This document shows, one piece after another, positions 21,677 through 34,525 of a stretch of 34,847 bases of DNA (positions are counted from its first letter, which is position 1; each line of letters opens with the position of its first letter). Both the position numbers and the translations under genes were made by a program. The DNA is taken from NCBI GenBank assembly GCA_002706365.1, contig PALM01000015.1, positions 1-34,847 of the forward strand, read 5' to 3'. The notes beneath the pieces are model-generated. The model did not search any database. It saw only the letters and a program-made list of their open reading frames with translations, and was not told the origin of the DNA. This stretch comes from Flavobacteriales bacterium (GTDB lineage: Bacteria; Bacteroidota; Bacteroidia; Flavobacteriales_E; Vicingaceae).

Positions 21677-23902
21677 ATGAGAAGAATTCTACCACATAGT
21701 TTAGCTATCCTATTGATGCTGTCATTTGCGCAACTCACTACTGCTCAAAGTAGGAATGATAAAAATGATAAAAATGATAAAAATGATAAAAAGGAGATTA
21801 CTATAGCCGATATATGGAAAGATAAAACATTTACTGAGGAAAATGTAAGTGGACTTAGAAGTATGAAAGATGGTATTCATTACACCATCATCGAAGACAA
21901 AGGCTCAGGAAATCAACTTTCGAAATACAGCTATGAAGATGGCAAATTCGTAGAGGCGCTTATCCTACCTTCTGATGTAGTTTATCAGGGTGAAAAACTG
22001 AAGATGGAGGCTTATGAGTTTTCTGCAGATGAGAGTAAGGTGCTTATTGCTACTGAAGTTGAGAAGATCTATAGAAGATCTAGCATGGCTTTCTTTTATA
22101 TTTTGGATTTGCAGAGCAAACAGCTTACACCACTGAATACAGATGATAAGCAGATGTATGCCGACTTCTCACCTGCCGGTTCTAAGGTTGCCTACGTATT
22201 GAATAACAACCTTTTTTACAAGGACTTAGAGACAGATGAATTGATCCAAATCACTGATGATGGAGAAAAGAATAGGATCATCAATGGAGCATCAGATTGG
22301 GTTTATGAAGAAGAACTGAGACTTTCTCAAGCTTTTAAATGGTCGCCGGAAGGAGATTTCATTGCCTTCTACCGCTTTGATGAAAGCCAGGTGAAACTGT
22401 GGAATATGAAGATCTACAACAATCTGTATCCAGAGCAAGAGCAGTTCAAATATCCAAAAGCGGGCGAGCAAAACTCAAAAGTTGAGATCAGGATCTACAA
22501 TCTTAAAAGAGATAAACATCAAGCGGCTAGTATCGATCCTGAGTACGAATACATTACTGGTATTGAGTGGAATAAAGGAAGTGGAGAACTAGCTGTGATC
22601 AGCAGCAATCGCCATCAAAATGAAGTAAAGGTCTCGCTGGTAGACCCCAAAAAGCTACGCTCAAGAGTGATTCATACAGAAGTGAGCGATACCTATATTG
22701 AAATGCCTTTTGATATTCACTTCTTGAACGACGGCAAAGAGTTTATTGTAATAAGTGAGAAAGATGGCTACCGTCACTTCTATCTCTACAATACCAAAGC
22801 TAGATTGAAAAAGCAGATCACCGAAGGTAAGTTCCCGATCACTGAATACTACGGTTTGGATGCAGAAGAAAAATGGCTTTACTATCAAGCAGCCGATCCA
22901 AATCCGCTAGAGCGACATATTTTCAAAGTAAACATCAATAGTGGTAAAAAGGTGCAACTGAGTAAACGAAAGGGAACCAATAGTGCCAAGTTCAGTAAGT
23001 CGTTCGACTACTATCTAAACTATCATACTACGGCTAACCAACCTAAATATATAAGCCTGAACAACAATTCCGGTAAGGAAATTCGCACACTTAAAGACAA
23101 TAAGGATCTCAATAAAAAGCTAAAGGAATACGCCATTAGTCAAAAGACTTTCTTCAGCTTTAAAACCTCAGAAAATATTGAGTTGAATGCCTGGATGATC
23201 AAACCGCCTAATTTCAACGACACCAATGTGTATCCTGTTTTCATCACCATTTATGGTGGACCAGGCTATCAAACGGTGAATGATTCATGGGGAGGTTCAA
23301 ATTACTTCTGGCATCAACATCTTGCTCAACAAGGTTATATCGTTGTTTCTGTAGATATGCGAGGATCAGGCTCTAGAGGAGTTGATTTCAAGAAGATCAC
23401 CTACAAGCAATTGGGGAAATATGAAACCATCGATCTGATCGAAACCGCAAAATACATGGCAGGACTGGATTATGTTGATGGCGATCGTATTGGAGTGCAA
23501 GGCTGGAGCTACGGAGGCTATATGTCGTCTTTGGCTATTTTAAAAGGTGCCGATCAATTCAAAGCTGCAATTGCCGTAGCACCGGTTACCAACTGGAGAT
23601 TCTACGATTCTATCTATACCGAGCGATATATGCAAACCCCACAGGAAAATGAAAACGGCTATGATGATAATTCGCCGATCAATCATGTGGAAAAACTAAA
23701 GGGAAGTTATTTGTTGATTCACGGAACGGCTGATGATAATGTACATTTTCAAAATACCGCTGAGATGATCAGTGCATTGGTAGAAGCCGACAAAGAATTC
23801 GACCTATTTATCTATCCCGATAAGAATCACAGTATTTATGGAGGCAATACGCGATATCATCTTTATAAAAAGATGACAATCTTCCTTTTGAATAATCTAT
23901 AA
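21677..23902 (+). CDS. Dipeptidyl peptidase 4-type S9B serine peptidase
   Basis: A 741-residue periplasmic exopeptidase that would remove X-Pro or X-Ala dipeptides from peptide N-termini. The signal peptide is residues 1-24 (ending LTTAQ). It is followed by an Asn-Asp-Lys repeat (about 26-38) encoded by four 9-base units. The beta-propeller domain spans about 60-490 and carries the DPP4 substrate-anchoring motif DWVYEEEL (Glu211-213 region). The catalytic domain has Ser611 in GWSYGGY, Asp in HGTADDNVHF (686-687) and His718 in PDKNHSIYGG. These are all diagnostic of S9B rather than plain prolyl oligopeptidase. Two POT peptide carriers follow on the same strand at 80-84 base spacing, which fits joint peptide use. 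Confidence 0.94.
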   Translation: MRRILPHSLAILLMLSFAQLTTAQSRNDKNDKNDKNDKKEITIADIWKDKTFTEENVSGLRSMKDGIHYTIIEDKGSGNQLSKYSYEDGKFVEALILPSDVVYQGEKLKMEAYEFSADESKVLIATEVEKIYRRSSMAFFYILDLQSKQLTPLNTDDKQMYADFSPAGSKVAYVLNNNLFYKDLETDELIQITDDGEKNRIINGASDWVYEEELRLSQAFKWSPEGDFIAFYRFDESQVKLWNMKIYNNLYPEQEQFKYPKAGEQNSKVEIRIYNLKRDKHQAASIDPEYEYITGIEWNKGSGELAVISSNRHQNEVKVSLVDPKKLRSRVIHTEVSDTYIEMPFDIHFLNDGKEFIVISEKDGYRHFYLYNTKARLKKQITEGKFPITEYYGLDAEEKWLYYQAADPNPLERHIFKVNINSGKKVQLSKRKGTNSAKFSKSFDYYLNYHTTANQPKYISLNNNSGKEIRTLKDNKDLNKKLKEYAISQKTFFSFKTSENIELNAWMIKPPNFNDTNVYPVFITIYGGPGYQTVNDSWGGSNYFWHQHLAQQGYIVVSVDMRGSGSRGVDFKKITYKQLGKYETIDLIETAKYMAGLDYVDGDRIGVQGWSYGGYMSSLAILKGADQFKAAIAVAPVTNWRFYDSIYTERYMQTPQENENGYDDNSPINHVEKLKGSYLLIHGTADDNVHFQNTAEMISALVEADKEFDLFIYPDKNHSIYGGNTRYHLYKKMTIFLLNNL
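21755..21790 (+). repeat. In-frame 9-base microsatellite, AATGATAAA x4
   Basis: Four perfect copies of AATGATAAA encode the Asn-Asp-Lys repeat directly after the DPP4 signal peptide. Slippage would change the linker by three residues per unit without a frameshift. Confidence 0.9.
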
Positions 23903-28893: not shown

Positions 28894-30252
28894 ATGCTTA
28901 TCAAAAGAATAACTTCCTCTTTCTTCATTATTTCAGCTTTGCTGATCGTATTCTCCTGCGGAAACTCAAGTCTATTCAACTCTCACAATAAGAATCATGT
29001 GATCGAACTAAGAGCAGAGCCGATCGATACGGTGCGTATTGCATTTATTGGGGTTGGACAAAGAGGCTTGCAGGCTGTGGAACGCCTGGCTCAGATCGAT
29101 GGTGTTGAGCTAGTGGTGATTGCCGATCTGGTTCAGGAAAACCTAGATAGCGCTCAACGCATACTCGCTAAGTATGAACTTCCCAAAGCAGATGAATATG
29201 ATGGCCCGGATGATTGGAAAGTCATTTGTGAAAGAGAAGACATTCACCTCATCTACATCTGCACCCCTTGGGAATTACACACCCCAATCTCTGTTTATGC
29301 TATGGAGAATGGCAAACATGTAGCTACCGAAGTCCCTGCAGCACAGACCATCAAAGAAGCTTGGCAGCTGGTAAAAACTGCTGAAAAAACCAGAATGCAT
29401 TGCATTCAATTGGAAAATTGCATCTATGATTTCTTTGAGCTAAGCGTACACCATATGGTGGATCAGGGCATGTTTGGCGAGATCAAGCATGCTGAAGGTG
29501 CATACATCCACGATCTTCGCTGGAAGCTCTTCGATGATACCGCAAAGGGCTATTGGAATATGTGGCGCTTGAGAAAACTGATGCAAACGGATGGGAACAC
29601 CTACCCTACGCATGGTATTGGTCCCATTGCTCACATTCTGGATATCCATCGTGGTGACCGCATGACTTATGTGAGCTCTTTATCAACCAAGCAATTTCAA
29701 TTGAGTGAATATGCAGATGAAAATTTGGACTCCACTTCAGAATTCAGCGGAGTTGAGTTTAAAAAGGGCGACCTCAACACTTCCTTGATCATGACTGAAA
29801 ATGGCAAAACACTGATTGTGCAACATGATGTGGTGAGCCCCAGACCGTACAGTCGATTATTCACCCTTAGCGGAACTAAAGGTTTTGCTCAGAAATATCC
29901 TCAAAAGAGTATCGCTTTCTCACCAAACAGCCATTATGCTATTGCCAAGAAAAAAATGGACTCCCTACTCAATGCCAACTTACATCCAATAGCCAAAGAA
30001 ATTGCCGATAAAGCCAGGAAGGTAGGCGGACATGGAGGCATGGATTACATTATGGACTATAGACTCATCTACTGTCTTCGCAATGGTTTACCACTCGACA
30101 TGGATGTATACGATGCCGCTGAGTGGTCTGCTTTGATCGAATTGAGTAAGAAGTCGGCAGCCCAAAATGGAAAACGCCTGAAGATGCCCGATTTTACTCG
30201 TGGAGCATACAAACAGGCGTCGCCAATTCGCTATTATCTTTTAGAAGATTAG
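28894..30252 (+). CDS. Gfo/Idh/MocA-fold lipoprotein, GH109-like
   Basis: A 452-residue NAD-binding protein of the glycoside hydrolase family 109 type, which cleaves glycosides (typically alpha-N-acetylgalactosamine) by an NAD-assisted redox route. A lipoprotein signal is likely: hydrophobic residues 10-20, then FSC with Cys22. The Rossmann motif is VRIAFIGVGQRGLQA (GVGQRG at 53-58), then VVIADL. GH109-like blocks follow: CTPWELHTP (123-131), GKHVATEVPAA (140-150), EGAYIHDLRW (201-210), GYWNMWR, and GNTYPTHGIGP (234-244) with His240 at the position of the catalytic histidine. The substrate is not shown. Its stop codon overlaps that of the convergent DUF6691 gene by 3-4 bases. Confidence 0.85.
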   Translation: MLIKRITSSFFIISALLIVFSCGNSSLFNSHNKNHVIELRAEPIDTVRIAFIGVGQRGLQAVERLAQIDGVELVVIADLVQENLDSAQRILAKYELPKADEYDGPDDWKVICEREDIHLIYICTPWELHTPISVYAMENGKHVATEVPAAQTIKEAWQLVKTAEKTRMHCIQLENCIYDFFELSVHHMVDQGMFGEIKHAEGAYIHDLRWKLFDDTAKGYWNMWRLRKLMQTDGNTYPTHGIGPIAHILDIHRGDRMTYVSSLSTKQFQLSEYADENLDSTSEFSGVEFKKGDLNTSLIMTENGKTLIVQHDVVSPRPYSRLFTLSGTKGFAQKYPQKSIAFSPNSHYAIAKKKMDSLLNANLHPIAKEIADKARKVGGHGGMDYIMDYRLIYCLRNGLPLDMDVYDAAEWSALIELSKKSAAQNGKRLKMPDFTRGAYKQASPIRYYLLED

Positions 30253-30662
30253 TGAGGTAAATGATCCTTTAGTTTTCCATAAAGGAATGTCCCTGCTATT
30301 GCCGAGACAAACACAATGATGATCGGGAAATATCCCGCTCCCATCAAGACGAATAATGGGCCCGGACAAGCACCTGCCAATCCCCATCCCAATCCAAAGA
30401 AAATACCTCCGATCAAATAACGACTTATCGACTTTTCTTTTGTGTCGATCTTGATCTCTGCTCCGTAGAACGACTTCAAACCAAAGCGCTTGATCGACTG
30501 TGTTACAATAACTCCGAGGACTACCGCAGCACCTATGATCCCATACATATGGAAAGAGGCGAAATTGAACATCTCATAGATCCTGAACCAAGAAGCTGCC
30601 TCAGATTTGAAAAGTACAATTCCAAAAAATACACCAATAATTAAATACCAAAATGCTCTCAT
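30249..30662 (-). CDS. DUF6691 / YeeE-YedE-like membrane protein
   Basis: A 137-residue inner membrane protein with about four helices. The conserved motif is GLGWGLAGACPGPLF (91-104) with Cys99, equivalent to one half of the YeeE/YedE (TsuA) thiosulfate transporter, whose cysteines pass thiosulfate through the membrane. In many Bacteroidota the transporter is split into two small proteins encoded side by side; the upstream gene on this strand supplies the other half (27 bases apart). Likely role: uptake of thiosulfate or a related sulfur compound as a hetero-oligomer. It is last in the leftward sulfur gene cluster. Confidence 0.88.
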   Translation of the reverse strand: MRAFWYLIIGVFFGIVLFKSEAASWFRIYEMFNFASFHMYGIIGAAVVLGVIVTQSIKRFGLKSFYGAEIKIDTKEKSISRYLIGGIFFGLGWGLAGACPGPLFVLMGAGYFPIIIVFVSAIAGTFLYGKLKDHLPH

Positions 30663-30689: not shown

Positions 30690-31244
30690 TTAAAATATTA
30701 ATGGAAATATTAAATGCACCATTACTAAACCTCCAATAAAGAATCCTATAACGGCTATTAGAGAAGGTAACTGCAGTGCACTTAATCCTGAAATGGCATG
30801 GCCGGAAGTACACCCACCGGCATAACGACTACCAAAGCCGATTAGCAGCCCTGCAATGATCAAGATCACGATCACAAAAGGGTCCGACATAGCTTCTGCT
30901 CCAAAAAGCTCTTCGGGTAAATAGTTTTGATTTACACTTTCGAAGCCCAATCCTTGGAGTTTTTCGCTCACATTCTCTTCTAGAACTACCGTATTCTCTT
31001 TGGTCAAGTAGTTTGATGCTACAAAACCACCGATTAGTACTCCAAGAGCTACAACAAGGTTCCAACGGTAATCTTTCCAGTCGATATCGAAGAAACTGTG
31101 TTTCTTTCCCGCTCCGCAGATGGTGCAAAGGGTTCGAAGGTTCGACGACATACCAAAACGTTTCCCCATCATCAATAGGAGAAACATGATTAAAGCAATT
31201 AAAGGTCCCGACACATACCATGGCCAGGTTCCGTAAATATCCAT
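30690..31244 (-). CDS. YeeE/YedE family sulfur transporter half
   Basis: A 184-residue inner membrane protein. The YeeE/YedE signature is GFGSRYAGGCTSGHAISGLS (136-155) with Cys145, matching the conserved cysteine of thiosulfate transporters. An additional pair, Cys40 and Cys43 (RTLCTICGAGKKH), lies just after the first helix on the predicted cytoplasmic side and could bind metal or carry sulfur. The protein pairs with the DUF6691 product. A strong terminator hairpin ends about 15 bases before its start codon, so its expression probably depends on readthrough from the persulfide dioxygenase gene. Confidence 0.9.
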   Translation of the reverse strand: MDIYGTWPWYVSGPLIALIMFLLLMMGKRFGMSSNLRTLCTICGAGKKHSFFDIDWKDYRWNLVVALGVLIGGFVASNYLTKENTVVLEENVSEKLQGLGFESVNQNYLPEELFGAEAMSDPFVIVILIIAGLLIGFGSRYAGGCTSGHAISGLSALQLPSLIAVIGFFIGGLVMVHLIFPLIF

Positions 31245-31258
31245 TCTTATAAAATTTT

Positions 31259-31302
31259 AAAAAAAAGAACCCCGTTCCGGCCAATGGCCAGATCAGGATT
31301 CT
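31259..31302 (-). terminator. Strong intrinsic terminator between the CstB-like gene and the YeeE gene
   Basis: On the minus strand: a 17-position stem (31302-31286 with 31282-31266; 3 G-U pairs, 1 mismatch), 3-base loop, followed by eight T residues. It lies inside the sulfur gene cluster, 18 bases after one stop codon and about 15 before the next start codon, so it may act as a partial terminator that sets the ratio of enzyme to transporter. Confidence 0.85.
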
Positions 31303-31320
31303 ACTATGTAAATTGATTAA

Positions 31321-32727
31321 TTAAGCAGTAGCTGCCTTTCCGCTTTCAGTCTTGACTCCTTCAGTCACTTTAAGCTTATCGAAACCACCTTCTACATTCA
31401 CCAGATTGTGCATTCCTCTGCTCTTCAAAATAGAAGAAGCGATCACAGATCTATATCCACCGGCACAATGCAAGTAGAACTTTTCGTCTGACGGGAATTC
31501 TGCTAGATGATCATTCAAGTAATCTAGTGGAGTATTCTCTGCATCCACCACATGATTGGTGTCGTATTCACTACACTTTCTCACATCAAAAACAGGAATC
31601 TCACTTTCGTTAATTCTCTTGGCAAATTCCTCTGGAGAAATCGACTCTATAGAATCGATCTCTTTGCCGGCAGCTTTCCAAGCCTCTACTCCACCTTTTA
31701 GGTATCCGAAAGTCTTATCGAAACCAACTCTTGAAAGACGGGTTACAGCTTCTTTCTCCTTACCTTCTGGAGTAACCAAAAGAATTGGCTGCTCTGTGTC
31801 TTTGATCAAGGCACCTACCCATGGAGCAAAGCCTCCGTGAAGTCCGATAAAGATCGAACGTGGCACATGTCCTTTAACAAAGTCATCTTCATGTCTTACA
31901 TCCAAAACAATTGCACCTGTTTCGTTGGCTGCAGTTTCAAATGTATCAGGATCCATTGCTGTTTCACCTCTTTCTAAAACATCGTCGATATTCTCATACC
32001 CCTCTTTGTTCATCTTCACATTCAATGGGAAGTATGCAGGAGGAGGCAATAGTCCATCGGTAACTTCTTTGATGAACTGCTCCTTGCTCATATCTCTCAA
32101 TGCGTAATTGGTAGCTTTTTGATTTCCAAGGGTGTCAACAGTATCTGTACTCATATTCTTCCCACATGCAGAACCTGCACCGTGAGCCGGATATACAGTA
32201 AGATCATCTGATAAAGGCATGATCTTCGTTCTCAAGCTATCGTAAAGCATTCCAGCTAATTCTTCTTGAGTCATGCTAGCAGCTTTCTGGGCAAGATCAG
32301 GTCTTCCAACATCACCTAAGAATAAAGTATCTCCAGTAAAGATGGCGTGATCCTTTCCGTTTTCGTCCTTCAAAAGGTAAGTTGAACTCTCCATGGTATG
32401 ACCAGGAGTGTGTAGCACCTTGATGGTCAGTTTTCCAACTTTGAACTCTTGTCCGTCTTCAGCGATGATCGCATCAAATGAAGGATTTGCTGTAGGACCG
32501 TAAATGATATCCGCTCCTGTCTTTTCAGCCAAACTCACATGGCCAGACACAAAATCAGCATGGAAATGAGTTTCAAGAATATACTTGATCTTCGCTCCAT
32601 TCTCTTCTGCTTTCTTGATATAAGGTTCAACTTCTCTCAATGGATCAATGATGGCTGCTTCGCCTTCACTTTGGATGTAATAAGCTCCTTGAGCTAGACA
32701 TCCGGTATAAATTTGCTCGATTTTCAT
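31321..32727 (-). CDS. CstB-like persulfide dioxygenase-sulfurtransferase fusion (MBL fold plus two rhodanese domains)
   Basis: A 468-residue cytoplasmic enzyme. An ETHE1-type metallo-beta-lactamase domain spans about 1-235: THFHADFVSGH (54-59 core), TPGHTMESS (His110), GDTLFLGDVGRPDL (Asp133) and YPAHGAGSACG (His182). These are the non-haem iron ligands that oxidise glutathione, CoA or bacillithiol persulfide to sulfite. The rhodanese-homology domain at about 255-355 has no cysteine in its loop (LLVTPEGKEKE), so it is a pseudo-rhodanese. The second rhodanese domain at about 360-460 has the active loop HCAGGYRS (Cys421). This layout is that of Staphylococcus CstB. The ATG at 32727 was chosen over a TTG seven codons upstream. 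The usual third His of the HxHxDH motif is Phe here. Confidence 0.93.
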   Translation of the reverse strand: MKIEQIYTGCLAQGAYYIQSEGEAAIIDPLREVEPYIKKAEENGAKIKYILETHFHADFVSGHVSLAEKTGADIIYGPTANPSFDAIIAEDGQEFKVGKLTIKVLHTPGHTMESSTYLLKDENGKDHAIFTGDTLFLGDVGRPDLAQKAASMTQEELAGMLYDSLRTKIMPLSDDLTVYPAHGAGSACGKNMSTDTVDTLGNQKATNYALRDMSKEQFIKEVTDGLLPPPAYFPLNVKMNKEGYENIDDVLERGETAMDPDTFETAANETGAIVLDVRHEDDFVKGHVPRSIFIGLHGGFAPWVGALIKDTEQPILLVTPEGKEKEAVTRLSRVGFDKTFGYLKGGVEAWKAAGKEIDSIESISPEEFAKRINESEIPVFDVRKCSEYDTNHVVDAENTPLDYLNDHLAEFPSDEKFYLHCAGGYRSVIASSILKSRGMHNLVNVEGGFDKLKVTEGVKTESGKAATA

Positions 32728-32834
32728 TGCTTCGTTCTTTAATTTCAATTATGTATTCTAAATTTTAATTCTTTACTCAATTTCCTATTGTGAGTTCGGA
32801 GTTTCGTGCTTGAAGTAAGGCTCTTAATAGTCAT

Positions 32835-32883
32835 CCTTACTCCTTACTCCTTACTCCTTACTCCTTACTCCTTATTCCTTACT
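32835..32883. repeat. Seven-copy perfect heptamer array, CCTTACT
   Basis: Seven contiguous units at 32835-32883, six identical (CCTTACT) and one CCTTATT. It is the longest and least diverged heptamer array in the window, so probably the youngest. Confidence 0.92.
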
Positions 32884-32954
32884 CCAAATCTTTTGTTTTT
32901 ACTTCCCTTTCCTATTATATCGTATTCTGTTTTTTTAATTCCTTTTTAGTGTGG

Positions 32955-33043
32955 GCCGATAGCCGATAGCCGAAATCTCGGATTTTCATATTTCATATCT
33001 CATATTTGTCTAGGTTCTAGGCTCTAGATTCTAGATTCTCATC
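32955..33043. repeat. Three heptamer families end to end
   Basis: GCCGATA, GCCGATA, GCCGAAA (32955-32975); TTTCATA, TTTCATA, TCTCATA (32984-33004); TCTAGGT, TCTAGGC, TCTAGAT, TCTAGAT, TCTCATC (33009-33043). The last array stops 3 bases from the TauE stop codon. Confidence 0.88.
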
Positions 33044-33046
33044 ATC

Positions 33047-33835
33047 CTAACCAACTTCTTTATAAATAATGAAAATTGCCATCACAAGTACAAAGTACCC
33101 AAAGGCCTTTTTCAGTTTCTTTCCTTCGATCCACTTGTTCAGATAGATTCCCAGGAAGATCCCAATGATGGAAAATGCTGAGAACTTCAATAGGAACATC
33201 CAATCGATCTGCAAGTTTTCTACATCCCCAATGAATCCGATCAGCGATTTTACTGCAATGATCAAAAGGGATGTTGCTACTGCTTTCTTCATTGGCAAGC
33301 CTGCGAGCAATACCAATGCCGGGATGATCAAAAATCCTCCACCTGCACCCACTATTCCCGTTAGCAAACCAACTCCTGCGCCTTCTAAAATTACCCAGAA
33401 AGCTTTACCCTTGACCTCTTTCTTTTGATCTAGTTCATCTTTCTTATTTCTAATCATAGAAAATGCAGCCAGCAACATGATGATCGCAAAAAATACCATG
33501 ATACCAAAGTCTTTACTTACTTCATATCCACCAAGAGTGAATAAGGTATCCGGTAAAGCAGGCATAATGTACTTTCTGGCAATATAAACTGCGATAAAGG
33601 CGGGAATCGAAAAGAGTATTGCTACTTTATAATCGATAAGTCCTTTAGTTGAATTTCGAATAGCTCCTGTTAAAGCTGTCAATCCTACAACAAAAAGCGA
33701 ATATGCCGTAGCTTGCATTGGGTCTATACCTAATAAATAGACAAATACCGGAACAGTTAGAATTGAACCTCCACCTCCTATGAGTCCGAGGACAACTCCA
33801 ATTATCAATGCTGCTATAAAACCTGCTATTTCCAT
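33047..33835 (-). CDS. TauE/SafE family permease
   Basis: A 262-residue inner membrane protein with about eight helices and the internal duplication of the family: GLIGGGGSILTVPVFVYLLG (18-37 region) and, in the second half, GIVGAGGGFLIIPALVLLAG followed by KKAVATSLLIIAVKS. Relatives export sulfite, sulfoacetate or other organosulfonates, and similar genes accompany persulfide dioxygenases. Export of sulfite formed by the CstB-like enzyme is the likely role (inference). A -7 element (TAACTTTG, minus strand, 33860-33853) lies 17 bases before the start codon, with a 5-4-5 inverted repeat at the usual class II activator position upstream. Confidence 0.92.
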   Translation of the reverse strand: MEIAGFIAALIIGVVLGLIGGGGSILTVPVFVYLLGIDPMQATAYSLFVVGLTALTGAIRNSTKGLIDYKVAILFSIPAFIAVYIARKYIMPALPDTLFTLGGYEVSKDFGIMVFFAIIMLLAAFSMIRNKKDELDQKKEVKGKAFWVILEGAGVGLLTGIVGAGGGFLIIPALVLLAGLPMKKAVATSLLIIAVKSLIGFIGDVENLQIDWMFLLKFSAFSIIGIFLGIYLNKWIEGKKLKKAFGYFVLVMAIFIIYKEVG

Positions 33836-33852
33836 TTGTCTTATTTACACGA

Positions 33853-33860
33853 CAAAGTTA
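33853..33860 (-). promoter_or_regulatory. -7 promoter element of the TauE/SafE gene
   Basis: TAACTTTG on the minus strand, a full match to TAnnTTTG. No TTG lies 19-21 bases upstream, which suits a promoter that needs an activator. Confidence 0.65.
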
Positions 33861-33882: not shown

Positions 33883-33896
33883 GTAACCTTTGTTAC
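33883..33896 (-). promoter_or_regulatory. Candidate operator GTAAC-CTTT-GTTAC
   Basis: A perfect 5-4-5 inverted repeat, the geometry of Crp/Fnr-family sites. Its centre is 36.5 bases from the last base of the -7 element, close to -41.5/-42.5 from the predicted transcript start, as for class II activation. The adjacent regulator gene ends at 33893, so the site overlaps its last codons. Confidence 0.6.
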
Positions 33897-34525
33897 ACTG
33901 TTTGATAATAGATTCGGTTGCGTTCAAGCTTAAGCATACCTTCCTTTTCTAAAGCTTTGAGTAGTCGAGAAATAACTACTCTTGATGAATTCAATGCGCG
34001 TGCAATTTCTTTGTGTGTTTTTCGAATTTCACCATTTTCATTCAAGCTTGCCTCATGCTCTAGATACTCCAATAGACGTTCATCAAGCTTTTTGAATGCG
34101 ATCTTATCTATAGTATTGATCAATTCCATCATTCTTTGATGGTATGATTCCAACACATAATTCCTCCAGCTATCGTATTTACTGCTCCACTCTTCCATTT
34201 TTTCAACTGGAATGAATAGGATCTGACTATCCATCTCGGCTTCTGCTTCAATTTCAGATCTTTTTTGACCTAGACAGCAATTGAGCGTCATGGCACAAGT
34301 TTCTCCTTCTCCTAAATAATACATCAGCAATTCATCTCCATTATCATCAATACGGTAAACACGGATCAAGCCATTCAAAAGAATAGGAATACTTCTAATT
34401 ACATGTCCGGCTTGCACTATGGTTTCTCCAGCTTTAAAAGTCTTGAACTTGCCTTCTCTTTCTATTTCCTCCATTAATTCTGGTTCAAAACCCAAGGAAA
34501 AATTCTTCAACTGCTCTTTCGTCAT
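33893..34525 (-). CDS. Crp/Fnr family transcription regulator with sensor-domain cysteines
   Basis: A 210-residue DNA-binding regulator. The cyclic-nucleotide-binding-type beta-roll covers about 10-115 (FKAGETIVQAG, then SIPILLNGLIRVYR, then DELLMYYLGEGETC). The dimer helix is about 118-145. The winged helix-turn-helix is at about 168-200 (THKEIARALNSSRVVISRLLKALEKEG). Cys77, Cys83 and Cys84 lie in ETCAMTLNCCLGQ, where true Crp has its cAMP phosphate-binding cassette. This is not the Fnr N-terminal four-cysteine cluster, so neither a 4Fe-4S Fnr nor a cAMP sensor is indicated. Given the sulfur genes downstream, a persulfide or redox sensor is likely but not shown. It is the first gene of the leftward cluster. 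Confidence 0.92.
   Translation of the reverse strand: MTKEQLKNFSLGFEPELMEEIEREGKFKTFKAGETIVQAGHVIRSIPILLNGLIRVYRIDDNGDELLMYYLGEGETCAMTLNCCLGQKRSEIEAEAEMDSQILFIPVEKMEEWSSKYDSWRNYVLESYHQRMMELINTIDKIAFKKLDERLLEYLEHEASLNENGEIRKTHKEIARALNSSRVVISRLLKALEKEGMLKLERNRIYYQTV

Follow-up and report, generated by a model that had tools for sequence, protein, structure and literature searches.

In Flavobacterium psychrophilum, 67 transcribed regions designated 3' PT lie behind predicted intrinsic terminators and are described as the outcome of partial termination (PMC9723704), and in Methanococcus maripaludis termination inside operons, with transcript ends mapped by Term-seq, leads to unequal gene doses (PMC10450193). 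The locus described here lies in a window of 34,847 nucleotides (the whole stretch of DNA that was analysed) from a Flavobacteriales bacterium. As with the 3' PT regions described in F. psychrophilum, a hairpin and a U tract stand between genes, although in the window the region behind them is a transporter gene pair 14 nt away and the readthrough is presumed (PMC9723704). The likeness to M. maripaludis is in termination inside operons, although M. maripaludis is an archaeon (PMC10450193).

The genes themselves also have described counterparts. In the bigR operon of Xylella and Agrobacterium, BigR is a winged-helix repressor, whereas the neighbour in the window is a Crp/Fnr-type protein; the passages that describe the bigR operon make no mention of an internal terminator (PMC5823870). 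The persulfide dioxygenase (PDO) of the window reaches 69.5 bits where the Blh family cut-off is 625, which rules it out as a Blh. PmpA and PmpB are described as two short YeeE-like proteins that represent the C- and N-terminal halves of the full-length family (PMC11582611), and the window likewise holds a pair of short proteins, which match positions 257-309 and 12-104, respectively, of the 310-position Pfam model Sulf_transp and are putative transporters. In NtcA-activated cyanobacterial promoters, a Crp-family site of the form GTAN8TAC is centred about 41.5 nt before the transcription start (PMC3898017).

The regulator, tauE, PDO-rhodanese, yeeE1 and yeeE2 genes follow one another in this order, all of them on the minus strand. 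The Crp/Fnr-type regulator gene (33893-34525; Pfam cNMP_binding and HTH_Crp_2), which adjoins tauE in relatives too, is followed by a tauE/safE-like sulfite exporter gene (33047-33835; Pfam TauE), the first of the unit. Next comes the PDO-rhodanese gene (31321-32748; Pfam Lactamase_B and Rhodanese), coding for a metallo-beta-lactamase fold with two rhodanese stretches; an alternative ATG start at 32727 is possible, and the TAA stop codon occupies 31323-31321. The half-size YeeE-like transporter genes are yeeE1 (30690-31244; PmpA-like, the C-terminal half) and yeeE2 (30249-30662; PmpB-like, the N-terminal half, also matching Pfam DUF6691), and both reading frames are intact, which suggests that the pair is in use. 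The yeeE1 ATG (31244-31242) is at a position common to relatives, so we ruled out a later start codon that would make space for a promoter.

The hairpin between PDO and yeeE1

The gap between the PDO stop codon and the yeeE1 ATG measures 76 nt (31245-31320). It contains a minus-strand stem-loop (31302-31266) with a predicted folding energy of -24.4 kcal/mol and a 3-nt loop; 16 of the 17 stem positions are paired, three of them as G-U, and the remaining one is an A.A mismatch. Eight T residues (31259-31266, minus strand), the first of which doubles as the last stem base, form what would be the U tract of a terminator, and an A/T-rich spacer of 14 nt (31245-31258, minus strand) without a promoter match separates them from the start codon. 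With its stable, G+C-rich stem and the T run directly behind it, the element has the make-up of an intrinsic terminator, at which transcription would be expected to end in the cell.

The 83-nt stretch with the hairpin folded at -24.5 kcal/mol compared to a mean of -13.25 for its shuffles (z -3.89), and only 1 of 200 shuffles did as well. Within a 240-nt transcript the stem pairs had predicted probabilities of 0.98-1.0, except for the outermost pair (0.88) and the A.A mismatch, and a hairpin scan ranked the structure as the strongest terminator-like hairpin of the whole window. A simple consensus terminator scan did not list it (5 sites in the region versus 5.8 in shuffles), presumably because of the stem mismatch. 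The plus strand of the gap folded unremarkably (z -0.90), and this value together with the absence of a T run on that side ruled out a plus-strand terminator. A search for copies of the gap elsewhere in the same genome returned only the self-match. The initial annotation had described a strong terminator with a 17-position stem and eight T residues in a 76-base gap, and the fold and its z value agree with this. It had set the terminator 15 bases before the yeeE start, which is right as to closeness and off in the exact distance, the T run ending 14 nt from the ATG. Its further claim that the hairpin falls within the leader needed by ribosomes is weak, since the stem and the ATG are 21 nt apart and the nucleotides in between are mostly A/U.

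The closeness of a terminator to the next start codon turned out to be ordinary. A simple longest-ORF script, applied to the window and 20 further stretches of this genome (432,813 bases in all), gave 242 co-directional neighbour pairs. Terminators of -14 kcal/mol or better between two co-directional genes were counted if no more than 150 nt separated them from the first gene; three of 21 candidates exceeded this distance and were left out. In six of the remaining 18, the window's included, the next start lies within 27 nt of the T run (one of the six needs a TTG start), on which grounds we regard the juxtaposition as nothing out of the common. The closest junction was found behind an htpG-like gene, where the T run of a strong terminator ends 6 nt before a lemA-like ATG (L165 14676-14730; names assigned by eye), and the window hairpin was the strongest of the 18. 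The missing promoter before yeeE1 is more informative than the juxtaposition, and the locus is a new example of an already known kind, a terminator with possible readthrough.

Terminators behind PDO in relatives

The comparison of PDO took in 30 loci from the same family (the window's own included), taken from the matches listed in a search of 46 genomes. A terminator call was obtained behind PDO in 18 of the 30, where shuffles would be expected to give 3.0 at that cut-off; once three calls that fell within the yeeE frame (G065, G066 and G022) had been removed, 15 remained. Among the 13 closest PDO loci listed, ten (own included) carry a hairpin with a T tract, at -16.8 to -24.4 kcal/mol, and three have no terminator. 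The other 17 loci listed comprise five with a terminator, nine without and the three calls inside yeeE.

In the same-genus genome G001 the regulator, the operator-like palindrome (see below), tauE and PDO are arranged as in the window, with a hairpin terminator following the PDO stop at a distance of 16 nt; this genome, 93% complete, gave no match to yeeE1. Together with this genome, 8 of the 11 next-closest PDO loci listed have a hairpin terminator at that place. The hairpins of the relatives begin 12-24 nt after the PDO stop and that of the window 18 nt after it; they have their place in common and differ in sequence. In none of the 12 closest relatives listed does yeeE directly follow the PDO terminator, and in five of them (G003, G015, G021, G026 and G012) yeeE1 lies 1.4-3.4 kb further on. 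As the relatives' terminators stand at the same place behind PDO without yeeE next to them, the window hairpin looks like an ordinary operon end and is best taken to be the regular terminator behind a putative tauE-PDO unit for sulfur detoxification beside the Crp-type regulator gene. The idea of a special device within a sulfur operon, put forward in the initial annotation, finds no support in this distribution.

Candidate promoter signals before tauE and, in relatives, yeeE1

Upstream of tauE, on the minus strand, we found an operator-like palindrome, GTAACAAAGGTTAC (33883-33896), the only exact copy in the window, and 22 nt behind it the -7 box of the presumed tauE promoter, TAACTTTG (33853-33860), an exact match to TAnnTTTG. 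The latter is the sigma-A -7 consensus, located at -12 to -5, in F. psychrophilum (PMC9723704). With the box at these positions, simple arithmetic puts the palindrome centre at -41.5. Since this is the site position in canonical NtcA-activated promoters, a Crp-type activator likely acts here. The pattern GTAAC-N4-GTTAC also fits GTAN8TAC, with a like centre, although cyanobacteria belong to another phylum (PMC3898017) and the window regulator scores far below the NtcA family cut-off (38.8 versus 244.95 bits).

A second palindrome in the window, with one mismatch, is at 23576-23589. The box alone is not enriched there (19 TAnnTTTG words versus 28.8 expected), and exact palindromes occur at six places genome-wide, two of them inside ORFs, versus 16 for a control pattern, so the operator assignment rests on position and not on number. 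From its position, the likely reader of the palindrome is the Crp/Fnr-type protein. Exact palindromes were also seen in the same genome at L111 1471-1514 and L114 1501-1514, 46 and 68 nt before the starts of a fatty-acid-hydroxylase-like and a peroxiredoxin-like gene, respectively (names by eye), and at L111 a TAnnTTTG box again stands exactly 22 nt behind the palindrome. Both genes are possible members of the same regulon.

The same arrangement precedes yeeE1 in many relatives. The comparison covered 80 named and 27 unnamed yeeE loci, of which the unnamed L089 was too short, leaving 26 tested. When no more than one mismatch was allowed, 61 of the 80 named loci and 7 of the 26 unnamed ones had the palindrome in the 110 nt that precede the yeeE1 ATG; as the loci are related to each other, these counts do not represent independent events. 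The reversed pattern was found in 0 of 106 loci, and a control interval 310-420 nt upstream held the palindrome in 4 of 79 named and 0 of 26 unnamed loci. The distance from the palindrome to the start of the -7 box is exactly 22 nt in 55 of 67 yeeE promoters. When up to one mismatch was allowed, the box was found in 73 of the 80 named loci and the reversed box in 48, and for the box only the fixed 22-nt spacing is convincing evidence.

In the tree, YeeE1 of the window shares a fork (support 87/85) with eight members of the family and seven loci from Aquimarina, and 12 of the 14 testable relatives in this fork have the palindrome. The two members without it are L052, where yeeE1 begins 7 nt behind PDO, and L088, where it begins 195 nt behind another ORF. 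Tight junctions of the former kind are also found in G065, G066, G022 and G013 (yeeE1 start -4 to 6 nt from the PDO stop), and co-transcription of PDO and yeeE1 is plausible in all five. Two Aquimarina loci (L014 and L045) have the gene order of the window and a 73-nt gap with the palindrome and without a terminator. A terminator shortly before a yeeE without the palindrome was seen behind a sigma-factor-like gene (L097) and a small rhodanese-like gene (L091; names by eye). The direct succession of PDO, a terminator and yeeE1 with no palindrome was seen in this genome alone among the loci compared.

Within 110 nt of the yeeE1 ATG of the window there is no palindrome (the best match has three mismatches), the gap contains no word closer than two mismatches to TAnnTTTG, and the palindrome with a -7 box 22 nt behind it is found at tauE instead. 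The best score of the gap in a model of this promoter type was 2.7, versus a median of 11.4 for the training promoters and 3.2 for the shuffled gap, the model having been trained on the same yeeE loci with which the gap is compared; the tauE promoter, which is outside the training set, scored 8.8. The initial annotation had noted that no promoter motif follows the hairpin, and none is recognisable. The lowest tenth of the training promoters reaches no more than 1.3, under the value of the gap, and 19 of the 80 named relatives and 19 of the 26 unnamed ones likewise have no palindrome, so its absence is no proof that a promoter is absent. A word inside the 3' part of PDO scored 5.2 in the model, and for this reason a promoter may lie there, upstream of the hairpin.

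Probable readthrough into the transporter pair and its alternatives

Because the gap has neither palindrome nor box and their combined geometry is found at tauE, yeeE1-yeeE2 is probably fed by readthrough. Transcription would begin at the Crp-type activator promoter before tauE, under the regulator, and most polymerases would stop at the hairpin and T8 tract, the end of the tauE-PDO unit. Some would read through the terminator and provide the main transcription of yeeE1-yeeE2, so that the transporter pair would keep the same regulator at a lower dose than the soluble enzyme. On balance, we favor this reading, an end terminator of tauE-PDO followed by a transporter pair that is without its own palindrome-promoter and fed mainly by readthrough; the yeeE promoter may then have been lost in this lineage, unless the pair arrived without it. 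Given the predicted strength of the hairpin, the fraction of readthrough may be low.

The alternative that survives best, which we nevertheless consider unlikely, is that yeeE1 has its own promoter, which would overlap the terminator and consist of the TTG of the hairpin loop followed by a degenerate -7 box, for instance TAAAATTT; the transcript would be leaderless or nearly so, and the terminator would merely insulate two units. The distance from this TTG to TAAAATTT is 22 nt, in front of an rnpA-like gene of this genome (named by eye) another terminator is directly followed by the box-like word TATCTTTA, and at L075 a terminator is followed by the word TTAATTTGC and then yeeE. Against this stand the mismatches of all box-like words in the gap (at least two each), its best model score, which is below the shuffled-gap median, and a start site that would fall on or beside the ATG.

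Much less probable is a regulated attenuator, in which a signal (persulfide, a protein or PDO translation) would choose between termination and readthrough into yeeE. The site does lie between co-directional genes of one pathway, and until the 3' arm of the stem has been transcribed, the 5' arm can find partners in the RNA further upstream (single-base probability up to 0.98), but most stretches of a long RNA would find some partner, making this no special sign. When the hairpin was forbidden in the 240-nt fold, the best structure was 24.4 kcal/mol worse and left the 5' arm unpaired, with no antiterminator of comparable energy, and the window gave 0 Rfam matches to described RNA families at gathering scores. 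Moreover, the relatives' hairpins at the same place differ in sequence, and the 18 nt between the PDO stop and the hairpin, a distance inside the range of the relatives, probably put it beyond reach of a ribosome at the stop codon. Thus, of the earlier proposal that the transporter genes depend on readthrough or on regulated attenuation, the first part is probable, given the strong terminator and the lack of a recognisable promoter, and the second finds no support in these folds, searches and distances.

About equally improbable is that the hairpin chiefly stabilises the 3' end of the PDO message or marks a processing boundary in it, in which case polymerase would pass through and the enzyme message would outlive the transporter message. 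In favour of this, a Zeaxanthinibacter locus (L009) has, behind a PDO-like gene (38% identity) and before yeeE1, the hairpin GGCCGG-TATG-CCGGCC with no T tract, whereas T8 directly behind the stem in the window marks a terminator and not a stabiliser only. The gap before yeeE1 in the Zeaxanthinibacter locus is 59 nt long and lacks the palindrome. The least probable version is that the pair gave up its own operator-promoter and that the leak of the terminator responds to sulfur stress via an antitermination factor, in which case transport would follow detoxification in time and dose.

If readthrough is proven, the locus will be a natural case of terminator leakage standing in for a missing promoter. 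The relatives show other states, namely separate palindrome-promoters and a tight PDO-yeeE operon without a terminator, and here there is the terminator only. The comparison further leads one to expect that Bacteroidota have a sulfur regulon of Crp type in which the spacing of palindrome and box is fixed; we found no published description of such a regulon in the open-licence full-text literature, partly judged by title.

The gap between tauE and PDO (32834-33039) holds four tandem arrays of period 7 in succession, with differing units, and the same-genus genome has one such array in its own tauE-PDO gap (L153 1920-1958). In the 432,813 sampled bases of this genome, 64 of 173 tandem arrays have period 7, 35 have period 14 and 11 have period 21; the same bases when shuffled gave 12 arrays, with period 7 outside the five commonest periods. 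Of the 64 period-7 arrays (loci L154-L173 and the window), which have many different units, 56 are intergenic, and eight family loci (L146-L153, 65,980 bases, the same-genus locus included) contain two arrays of this period.
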